Positions 7,222-42,091 of a stretch of DNA of 64,000 bases are shown one piece after another. Source of the DNA: Hydrotalea sp. (GTDB lineage Bacteria > Bacteroidota > Bacteroidia > Chitinophagales > Chitinophagaceae); assembly GCA_022402565.1 (NCBI GenBank), contig JAKRSC010000008.1, positions 62,001-126,000 on the forward strand, in the 5' to 3' direction. Numbering within the stretch: position 1 is the first letter of the stretch; the number at the start of each line of letters is the position of its first letter. Both the position numbers and the translations under genes were made by a program. The notes below the pieces were generated by a model, which worked only from the letters and a program-made list of their open reading frames with translations, had not been told where the DNA came from and searched no databases.

Positions 7222-7381
7222 AACTAGCTTGCCTAAGTTTCGGGAGTAGAGCGTCCCAGTTGAATCGGGAAGGTCAGCGGTAAGGGAGGAAATAATAGGG
7301 GAATTAGCTTCCCGAAGTTTCGGGAGTAGAGCGTCCCAGTTGAATCGGGAAGGTCAGCGGTAAGGGAGGAAATAAAAGGGG
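7222..7381. repeat. Two tandem copies of an 80-bp tRNA-derived repeat
   Basis: 7222-7301 and 7302-7381 match at 76 of 80 positions. Each unit contains the first 12 bases of the adjacent tRNA (GGGGAATTAGCT), then a palindrome of the TCCCGAA/TTCGGGA type (degenerate in the first copy), then GTAGAGCG, a second TCCC...CGGGA inverted repeat and AGGTCAGCGG, and ends with a purine-rich stretch instead of a T-arm. The unit reads as a tRNA whose D-loop and T-arm have been replaced. The third 'copy' is the intact tRNA itself. Confidence 0.8.
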
Positions 7382-7450
7382 AATTAGCTCAGTTGGTAGA
7401 GTATTTGCATGGCATGCAAAGGGTCACCGGTTCGAATCCGGTATTCTCCA
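7378..7450 (+). tRNA. tRNA-Ala (anticodon GGC)
   Basis: A complete 73-nt cloverleaf without encoded CCA. The acceptor strands GGGGAAT and ATTCTCC pair fully with the G3-U70 wobble, the identity mark of alanine tRNA. D-stem GCTC/GAGT; anticodon stem TTTGC/GCAAA with loop ATGGCAT, giving anticodon GGC; T-arm ACCGG-TTCGAAT-CCGGT. It is followed at once by its own terminator and a GIY-YIG gene. Confidence 0.95.
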
Positions 7451-7454
7451 CAAA

Positions 7455-7483
7455 CCCAATCATTCAAACGGTTGGGCTTTTTT
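7455..7483 (+). terminator. tRNA terminator running into the GIY-YIG start codon
   Basis: CCCAA (7455-7459) and TTGGG (7472-7476) pair around a 12-nt loop, followed by C and six T. The ATG of the next gene begins right after the T run, so that gene is expressed only by readthrough or from an unseen start. Confidence 0.6.
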
Positions 7484-7732
7484 ATGTCATTTACAGTTTA
7501 TATCATTTACTCAGCAGCAGTTGATAGACTTTATGTAGGTCAAACATCAAATCTTCAAGACCGTTTATATCGTCATAATCATTCGGGAAGTAAATCAACG
7601 AAAAAAGCAAATGATTGGAGGGTGGTTTATACAGAAGTTTTTGAAACAAGAACAGAAGCTATAGCTAGAGAAAATGCAATAAAGAGAAAGAAGAGTAGAG
7701 AATATATGCAAAAGCTAATTGGTGAAAGATAG
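7484..7732 (+). CDS. Small GIY-YIG nuclease family protein
   Basis: An 82-residue protein that is a bare GIY-YIG (UvrC N-terminal/URI type) domain: TVYIIYS then LYVGQT for the two halves of the signature, DRLYRH with the conserved Arg, and ARENAIKRKKSREY near the end. The start at 7484 was chosen because the longer frame from 7409 would translate the tRNA gene. The stop codon TAG overlaps the first bases of a tRNA-like remnant. Members of this family are often found directly downstream of tRNA genes in Bacteroidota, as far as I recall. The substrate and biological role are unknown; a homing-like role is only a hypothesis. Confidence 0.8.
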   Translation: MSFTVYIIYSAAVDRLYVGQTSNLQDRLYRHNHSGSKSTKKANDWRVVYTEVFETRTEAIARENAIKRKKSREYMQKLIGER

Positions 7733-7785
7733 AGCGTCCCGACCCGAGGTCGGGAAGGTCAGCGGTTCGAATCCGTTATTCTCCA
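7730..7785 (+). pseudogene. tRNA remnant (3' part) with palindromic anticodon arm
   Basis: From TAGAGCG the sequence follows tRNA order: an anticodon arm region made of an 8-bp palindrome (TCCCGACC-CGA-GGTCGGGA, 7737-7755), a variable loop, T-arm AGCGG-TTCGAAT-CCGTT and acceptor ATTCTCC plus A. The 5' acceptor strand and D-arm are missing, since the GIY-YIG gene occupies that place. If folded as a tRNA, the anticodon loop would be 9 nt, so it is unlikely to be functional. Confidence 0.7.
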
Positions 7786-7790
7786 CAAAC
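7757..7790 (+). repeat. Second copy of a 34-bp direct repeat of the tRNA 3' end
   Basis: 7757-7790 repeats 7422-7455 (tRNA T-arm, acceptor end and the following CAAAC) with two mismatches in 34. The two copies flank the GIY-YIG gene at a 335-bp interval, which looks like the footprint of insertion or duplication at a tRNA 3' end. Confidence 0.75.
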
Positions 7791-42064: not shown

Positions 42065-42091
42065 TCCCGCCTGTAAACGGCGGGATTTTTT
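42065..42091 (+). terminator. Terminator touching the start codon of the permease gene
   Basis: TCCCGCC (42065-42071), loop TGTAAAC, GGCGGGA (42079-42085), then six T ending at 42091. The ATG of the amino acid permease starts at 42092. Confidence 0.85.

Follow-up and report, generated by a model that had tools for sequence, protein, structure and literature searches.

An intact tRNA-Ala(GGC) gene of a Hydrotalea sp. lies, together with a small GIY-YIG nuclease gene, between partial copies of itself in which palindromes take the place of parts of the tRNA. The array was found in a stretch of 64,000 nt (assembly GCA_022402565.1, contig JAKRSC010000008.1, positions 62,001-126,000, forward strand; here called the window), and its layout is beyond chance, as it recurs in most loci that we read. 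We find the arrangement to be real, specific and widespread, and no kind of element known to us combines all of its parts. As the sequences show, the arrays share a bare GIY-YIG gene on the tRNA strand and partial tRNA copies outside the core, most of them palindromic; lineage, isoacceptor and palindrome type go together, and the arrays are patchy among related species. We think it rather likely that the window array is one of a family of tRNA-specific selfish elements, with the steps of breakage, entry and amplification that are proposed in the Discussion.

Results

Anatomy of the tRNA-Ala array

All features of the array are on the + strand. The tRNA-Ala(GGC) gene identified by ARAGORN is intact and contiguous (7378-7451). 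It is followed by a terminator-like hairpin and T run (7455-7483), recognized by consensus match only, whose stem spans 7455-7476 and whose CTTTTTT abuts the ATG at 7484. The GIY-YIG gene (7484-7732) encodes 82 amino acids, matches Pfam PF01541 with an E-value of 4.8e-18, carries the residues that are invariant in the family and starts 32 bp from the ARAGORN tRNA end. The unit measures about 0.34 kb and contains no second ORF of at least 60 amino acids besides the GIY-YIG gene. The original prediction, made from this DNA alone, had described an intact tRNA-Ala(GGC), its terminator and an 82-residue GIY-YIG gene directly behind the T run, and ARAGORN, Pfam and the hairpin match agree with it on each of these. 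It should be noted that the GIY-YIG frame is open back through the anticodon region of the tRNA, giving a 107-amino acid ORF that includes tRNA sequence (7409-7732).

Upstream of the tRNA, an 80-bp tandem repeat (7222-7301 and 7302-7381, 95% identical) has as its units two 5′ partial copies of the tRNA. The first copy (7222-7281) is degenerate and aligns to tRNA nt 5-54; in it, the imperfect palindrome TCCCAGTTGAATCGGGA, whose stem has a mismatch and a G-T pair, replaces the anticodon arm (7254-7270). The second copy (7298-7361) is the better of the two and aligns to nt 1-54, with the perfect palindrome TCCCGAAGTTTCGGGA where the D loop would be (7310-7325) and TCCCAGTTGAATCGGGA again in place of the anticodon arm (7334-7350).

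Downstream of the gene, a 3′ partial copy is made up of a TAGAGCG piece starting at 7730 and a copy of the tRNA 3′ end (7757-7790; tRNA nt 45-75 plus 3 bp), and the perfect palindrome TCCCGACCCGAGGTCGGGA replaces its anticodon arm (7737-7755). By eye, the TAG of the TAGAGCG piece is also the stop codon of the GIY-YIG gene. The original prediction had near-identical direct repeats around the gene at 7422-7455 and 7757-7790, and these 34-bp repeats are indeed 94% identical. Its picture of a gene flanked by a tRNA-end repeat was thus right about the downstream repeat and incomplete as a description of the structure, having missed the upstream copies and the palindromes. The motif TCCCGA(N2-12)TCGGGA has two occurrences in the 64-kb window, both inside the tRNA-Ala array, and none in 100 shuffles. 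Another TCCCG..CGGGA palindrome is found at 42065-42085, with no tRNA gene nearby.

The GIY-YIG protein

The window protein belongs to the GIY-YIG family by its PF01541 match and its conserved residues. Among 30 divergent members (alignment A2), seven columns are invariant, namely: Y6, S10, Y17, G19, H31, E63 and K67, and R27 is nearly so. The protein is a bare domain of 82 residues with no DNA-binding extension. In a PDB sequence comparison, the closest proteins of known structure are UPF0213 proteins and SLX1 (1zg2, 1ywl and 7cq2), and the SLX1 chains are longer (183-324 residues). A single-sequence structure model of the protein was poor (mean pLDDT 62.5). With the window protein as query, no relative was found in phages or plasmids at an E-value of 1e-5. 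Two single proteins, used as queries whose reach is limited to close relatives, found none among viral contigs.

The ratio dN/dS was computable in 5 of 11 pairs, where it is 0.03-0.16 (dS exceeds 1.5 in two of these); in the remaining 6 pairs, synonymous sites are saturated. By these values, purifying selection keeps the nuclease gene functional, and the copies in g108, described below, are old.

Arrays across Bacteroidota

Profile A1 (E 1e-3) matched 105/147 genomes and 79/100 genera of the window's family, and profile A2 (E 1e-6) matched 160/247 genomes and 87/122 genera of the phylum. From 119 genomes of 14 families, 180 loci were read. Because these are high-scoring loci among the matches listed and the members from which profile A2 derives were themselves tRNA-linked, fractions among the 180 loci are not unbiased. 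A clade of 8 relatives without a tRNA was kept in the set (L027, L045, L053, L105, L106, L107, L114 and L116). Left out were overlapping or other own-genus loci (L001-L022, L024-L026, L029 and L030), duplicates (L169, L170 and L179), the named loci (L121-L125) and comparison loci (L126-L168 and L259 onward). The profile searches and the 180-locus survey support the statement of the original prediction that similar genes are frequent in Bacteroidota.

All 187 ARAGORN tRNAs in the 180 loci are on the strand of the GIY-YIG gene (187/187). A tRNA lies within 250 bp in 148/180 loci, namely: upstream in 118, downstream in 27 and inside the array in 3; the nearest tRNA is farther away in 4/180, and 28/180 have no ARAGORN tRNA. 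Direct repeats flank the gene in 149/180 loci and in 13/294 cross-locus controls. Two to five full copies are present in 40 of the 180 loci, and the tandem units are arranged head-to-tail. As for the named loci, L125 has the full layout, L121 and L122 have a tRNA-like 3′ copy, at L123 a pair of tRNA-Val genes lies some 0.4-0.6 kb upstream and tRNA-Val-like pieces are visible by eye, and none of the layout was found at L124.

Two loci of the survey stand out. At L251 (G380, contig C1, 118800-123500), five identical-scoring GIY-YIG units with a spacing of 450 bp lie beside tRNA-Leu(CAG). At L047 (G110), five tRNA-Lys copies, one Leu-like gene and one further tRNA-like gene occur in 3.2 kb around one GIY-YIG gene; this cluster was possibly amplified by the same process as the arrays.

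Partial copies and their palindromes

A second, partial tRNA copy is present at 136/144 loci with an intact tRNA, compared with 3/144 for control stretches at least 600 bp away. New palindromes, defined as having a stem of at least 6, lying in the partial copy and being absent from the intact tRNA, occur in 121/136 partial copies, where shuffled copies lead one to expect 23.1. In 65/121, the palindrome starts with TCCC or TCCG. The palindrome TCCGCC..GGCGGA at initiator tRNA-Met is common to families f1, f23 and f26. At tRNA-Pro(CGG), TGGCGCC..GGCGCCA occurs in f14, f16 and the named locus L125, and L118 (f1) differs. TCCCG palindromes cluster near the gene: 95 lie in the 88 kb closest to it and 22 in the other 180 kb of these loci, while two control palindromes gave near/far counts of 0/1 and 5/3.

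The partial copies are mirror-asymmetric in a sample of copies scoring at least 44. Upstream copies (n=54) have an identity to the intact tRNA of 0.96 at nt 1-25 and 0.41 at the last 31 nt, a pattern seen in 52/54, and downstream copies (n=104) have 0.45 and 0.91, respectively (96/104). The outer parts of the copies are thus retained, and the inner parts are lost or decayed. Local alignment favours partial matches, yet it cannot account for their direction. The asymmetry is as expected of a tRNA gene that was broken near a palindrome and whose halves now enclose the nuclease and a complete tRNA; such a split is what we infer and nothing firmer, since tandem duplications with decay on the inner side also fit. 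The 5′ part is missing from many arrays, and upstream copies occur in a minority of loci. Most partial copies are without one side of the acceptor stem and therefore should not fold as tRNA.

Nuclease lineage, tRNA and palindrome type

A tree was built from 178 of the 180 proteins, two without a full-length domain having been dropped; it rests on about 80 alignment columns, and many of its forks are unresolved. An isoacceptor label with 27 states was available for 156 of the 178 proteins (22 were unlabelled). The isoacceptor requires 61 changes on the tree; in 200 shuffles the labels required 121.9 on average and never fewer than 115. The fit is imperfect, the least possible number being 26. 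The genome label requires 145 changes (145.4 when shuffled). Copies thus tend to group by tRNA across genomes and not with their genome mates. The family label requires 49 changes (74.3 when shuffled), a signal such as vertical descent would give. In an earlier tree of the window's family alone (81 loci), the isoacceptor required 29 changes as opposed to 61.9.

Palindrome type also follows the tree, with 47 changes compared with 67.5 when shuffled (minimum 63). When types were shuffled within isoacceptors, the mean was 57.6 and the minimum 52, and 0/300 shuffles reached 47. The side on which the intact tRNA lies requires 9 changes (18.9 when shuffled, minimum 16). Where in the tRNA the palindrome sits (its position class) agrees only weakly with the tree (28 changes vs. 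33.9), and not beyond the isoacceptor effect, since 43/300 within-isoacceptor shuffles reach the observed value. Position class is thus unsupported as a lineage trait independent of isoacceptor, whereas palindrome type does hold up.

Some lineages cover several tRNAs. One of 10 rows (support 88) includes Arg, Ala, Ser, Cys and Leu copies, and several of its members carry, as judged by eye, D-loop palindromes of CCTGCC or CCCGCC type (L097, L188, L202, L242, L245 and L251). Another, of 9 rows (support 97), includes Asp, Leu, Lys and Val copies and has ATGCTGAC-type palindromes in L028, L039, L040 and L092, which were placed automatically in the T arm (L039 and L040), the variable region (L028) or the anticodon arm (L092). 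Such lineages would fit recognition of local sequence, but the test of position class above gave no more than isoacceptor does.

Other arrays in the same genome and genus

Protein and profile searches found five GIY-YIG genes in the window's genome, including that of the window. Two of them form tandem units behind tRNA-Asp(GTC), and the palindromes of their partial copies fall, as judged by eye, in the T arm. A further one, on contig C14, is flanked by partial copies that resemble tRNA-Asn by eye, and its protein groups with tRNA-Asn-linked ones. The remaining gene, at 107 kb on C17, has no tRNA in the 6.5 kb read, and its protein falls in a separate clade. At that locus (L027; G000, C17, 104000-110500), the gene of the tRNA-free clade lies amid many copies of a repeat of GGTGCCTGAGGCTCTCGAAGGC type, which is dispersed and different.

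Arrays without a nuclease are also present. On contig C18, behind tRNA-Arg(CCG), its 3′ end is repeated in four tandem copies of 116 bp with two T-loop palindromes (L289, 616-1180), and on contig C21, at least two tandem 3′-end copies with two T-loop palindromes lie behind tRNA-Arg(CCT) (L290). The GIY-YIG gene is absent from both. The motif ATGCTGAC(N2-14)GTCAGCA occurs 8 times in the genome, and all 8 are within the Asp, Arg(CCG) and Arg(CCT) arrays (reversed control, 0). Of these three arrays, only that at tRNA-Asp has GIY-YIG genes. By their sequences, the Asp and Arg arrays look as if they belong to one palindrome type that occurs with and without a nuclease. TCCCG palindromes are found away from tRNAs too: there are 52 in the window's genome (11 for the reversed control), and no tRNA gene is present at 5 of eight other sites examined.

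Both other genomes examined from the genus have a tRNA-Ala array. In G001, it comprises three upstream partial copies, the intact tRNA and two nuclease units; in G002, the upstream copies number two and, of its two units, the second is broken. Over 5.5 kb around the window array, nothing aligns with the two congeners beyond the array itself. By eye, its neighbours are an lpxB-like gene in the congeners and gltA- and dctA-like genes in the window.

Presence, absence and scars in relatives

In genus g85, one of five species has a four-unit array at tRNA-Asp, and the upstream flank is conserved; in the four other species, no GIY-YIG match lies within 1.5 kb of tRNA-Asp. In g5, tRNA-Val is bare in G006 and has an array in G105, and the flanks of the two do not align. 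For g108, a tRNA-Ala query was run against 121 genomes and matched in 107, and the best 30 loci were read: the nuclease array is present at 8 of these best 30 and absent at 22.

Comparison of L259 with the empty locus L264 shows about 0.8 kb extra in L259. Both ends of the L259 array match the single tRNA of the empty locus: upstream, the flank and tRNA nt 1-25 join the first partial copy; downstream, tRNA nt 19 onward and the flank join the last. Scars were seen at two empty loci, namely: a palindrome-bearing 5′ copy at L263 and, by eye, a shorter remnant at L260, both without a nuclease. L282 gave a weak match in the scar search, which found nothing at the remaining 19 empty g108 loci.

In g108, the intact tRNA alleles are identical in carriers and non-carriers in each of three allele groups; the arrays therefore do not hold a recoded, cut-resistant spare tRNA, and a recoded rescue tRNA was rejected. 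That the intact tRNA is unrecoded argues against simple homing. Synonymous sites of the g108 nucleases are near saturation (pS 0.65-0.86 in 5 pairs) and hence give no sign of recent transfer; losses may account for some of the empty sites. Counts of empty sites do not separate gain from loss. A fixed housekeeping gene was rejected, since presence varies within genera. The original prediction would have yielded to a fixed gene had every relative shown the same arrangement at the same tRNA; the arrangement differs between relatives, and the proposal of a minimal tRNA-associated element stands. A simple reading in which the nuclease cuts the tRNA gene leaves the identical tRNA in carriers and non-carriers, the upstream copies and the lineage-specific palindromes unexplained.

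Discussion

We propose that a break made by the nuclease would be followed by homologous recombination that inserts the element into a tRNA gene, the two tRNA parts serving as homology arms for entry. The GIY-YIG protein might make this break in the empty tRNA gene, in a homing-like manner, or at the palindromes, which can extrude as hairpins or cruciforms. The host would keep tRNA function through the complete copy inside the element, and because of that copy would pay no tRNA cost. The same breaks may drive the formation of head-to-tail tandem units, as with phage SegB at tRNA-Tyr, and the nuclease-free palindrome arrays may be non-autonomous relatives on which the nuclease acts in trans. 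Cleavage and movement by the element are steps that we infer. Several observations weigh against the proposal: the unrecoded tRNA shared by carriers and non-carriers, the near-saturated synonymous sites in g108, the partial agreement of the protein tree with family, the searches of phages, plasmids and viral contigs that found no relative within their reach, the weak signal of position class, TCCCG palindromes remote from tRNAs, the 28 loci with no ARAGORN tRNA and the many arrays with no 5′ part. A broader claim would be that of a phylum-wide selfish class in which a specific tRNA gene is broken at a palindrome and a complete spare is supplied within the insert, as in a natural counterpart of 'home-and-rescue' gene drives, and in which a bare SLX1-like nuclease recognizes the palindromes and mobilizes nuclease-free arrays in trans; this is quite possible, and we hold it tentatively.

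Two mobile readings compete with the proposed element. The gene could be a strict free-standing homing endonuclease gene of the SegB kind, which cuts element-free tRNA genes and lets the carrier template the repair, so that the palindromes are scars or protected sites. The GIY-YIG domain, nuclease lineages that follow the isoacceptor, empty sites in relatives (as in g85 and at 22 of the best 30 g108 loci) and a tandem amplification known for SegB all speak for it. The carrier's tRNA, however, is uninterrupted and unrecoded, only the extra copies being altered, so that it does not look like an immune target, and the protein consists of the bare domain, with no extension for DNA binding. The homing target may reach into the flank. 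On balance we consider strict homing unlikely. The second reading is a REP/RAYT-like system in which a GIY-YIG protein replaces the HuH transposase, recognizes and mobilizes the palindromes and has tRNA genes as its preferred landing site. It would account for palindrome types that co-vary with nuclease lineage even within isoacceptors, for nuclease-free arrays that carry the palindrome of the nuclease-bearing tRNA-Asp array of the same genome, and for the concentration of TCCCG palindromes near the gene, and the SLX1 kinship favours it. Against it, the palindromes are few and many lie in tRNA parts, where hundreds of dispersed copies would be looked for, and no GIY-YIG nuclease is known to join DNA ends. 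This reading, too, seems doubtful to us.

The remaining explanations need no mobile element. In a host system acting at the RNA level, the GIY-YIG protein would be made by read-through from the tRNA promoter and would process or regulate the tRNA, with the partial copies as decoys. The fixed strand, an ATG that in the window comes right after the terminator of the tRNA, and purifying selection are in keeping with such a role; patchy presence within genera, scars, head-to-tail tandem units and partial copies that mostly have no more than one side of the acceptor stem speak against it and make it very improbable. Draft genomes can misassemble repeats, and some loci are at contig ends. Nevertheless, arrays lie deep inside the one- or two-contig genomes G001, G057, G086, G332 and G380, 119 genomes carry the loci, and the statistics are far from those of shuffles and controls, which refutes chance or an assembly artefact and leaves it a practically negligible probability.

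If the selfish-element reading is true, many small GIY-YIG genes of Bacteroidota form a large selfish family in which each member is dedicated to an essential tRNA gene. There would then be a natural example of an element whose breakage of an essential gene is paid for with a spare. This reading would also account for the tRNA repeats that are found truncated in these genomes, and the targets of bare UPF0213/SLX1-type domains would become directly testable.

Comparison with known systems

Within the open-licence literature, which was the scope of our search and leaves most subscription papers and preprints outside, we found no report of chromosomal tRNA-dedicated palindrome arrays, and each of the known systems below shares some of the parts. 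Group I introns with GIY-YIG endonucleases occur in tRNA genes, and so associate the same nuclease domain with tRNA; the window tRNA is contiguous over 7378-7451 with no interruption, and the gene is only 32 bp away from it. Integrative elements at tRNA ends leave the tRNA intact and mark their far side with a duplicate of its 3′ end, as is seen here. The window array differs from them in its 5′ copies and palindromes, its use of different tRNA positions, its unit of only about 0.34 kb and its lack of an integrase; since the 3′-end duplicate is present but the unit has no integrase-sized ORF, an element of the integrase type was rejected. UPF0213 and SLX1 proteins belong by sequence to the same domain family as the window protein, and we know of no tRNA arrays linked to them.

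REP/RAYT (TnpA-REP) systems have a HuH transposase rather than a GIY-YIG protein and are not known to contain tRNA parts. They resemble the arrays in having short palindromes that co-vary with a nuclease gene and in forming arrays with and without the nuclease. The association with palindromes is found here as well (121/136 copies; 95 near vs. 22 far), and an HuH (Y1) transposase is not, the gene of the window unit being a GIY-YIG gene. The available text of two REP/RAYT papers (PMC3733652 and PMC6006769) does not mention GIY-YIG.

According to the available text of Chihara et al. (PMC13096335), phage SegB is a free-standing GIY-YIG endonuclease that cuts within tRNA genes, is needed for tandem amplification of tRNA-Tyr together with its own gene, and adjoins tRNAs of a wide range of isotypes in phages. 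SegB of T4 and T6 thus resembles the window array in placing a GIY-YIG gene beside tRNA genes and in forming tandem units of tRNA and nuclease, and it is the best precedent for the tandem units described here. It differs in being phage-borne, and palindromic tRNA parts and lineages dedicated to a single tRNA are not mentioned in that text (PMC13096335); the window protein, moreover, is a bare 82-residue domain that is closest to UPF0213/SLX1. Presence/absence polymorphism of the kind known from homing is found at tRNA-Asp in g85 (1/5 species) and at tRNA-Ala in g108 (8 of the best 30 loci). Taken together, the array works most like a homing or a REP-type element, and because it fails one of the features that define each, we file it under neither.
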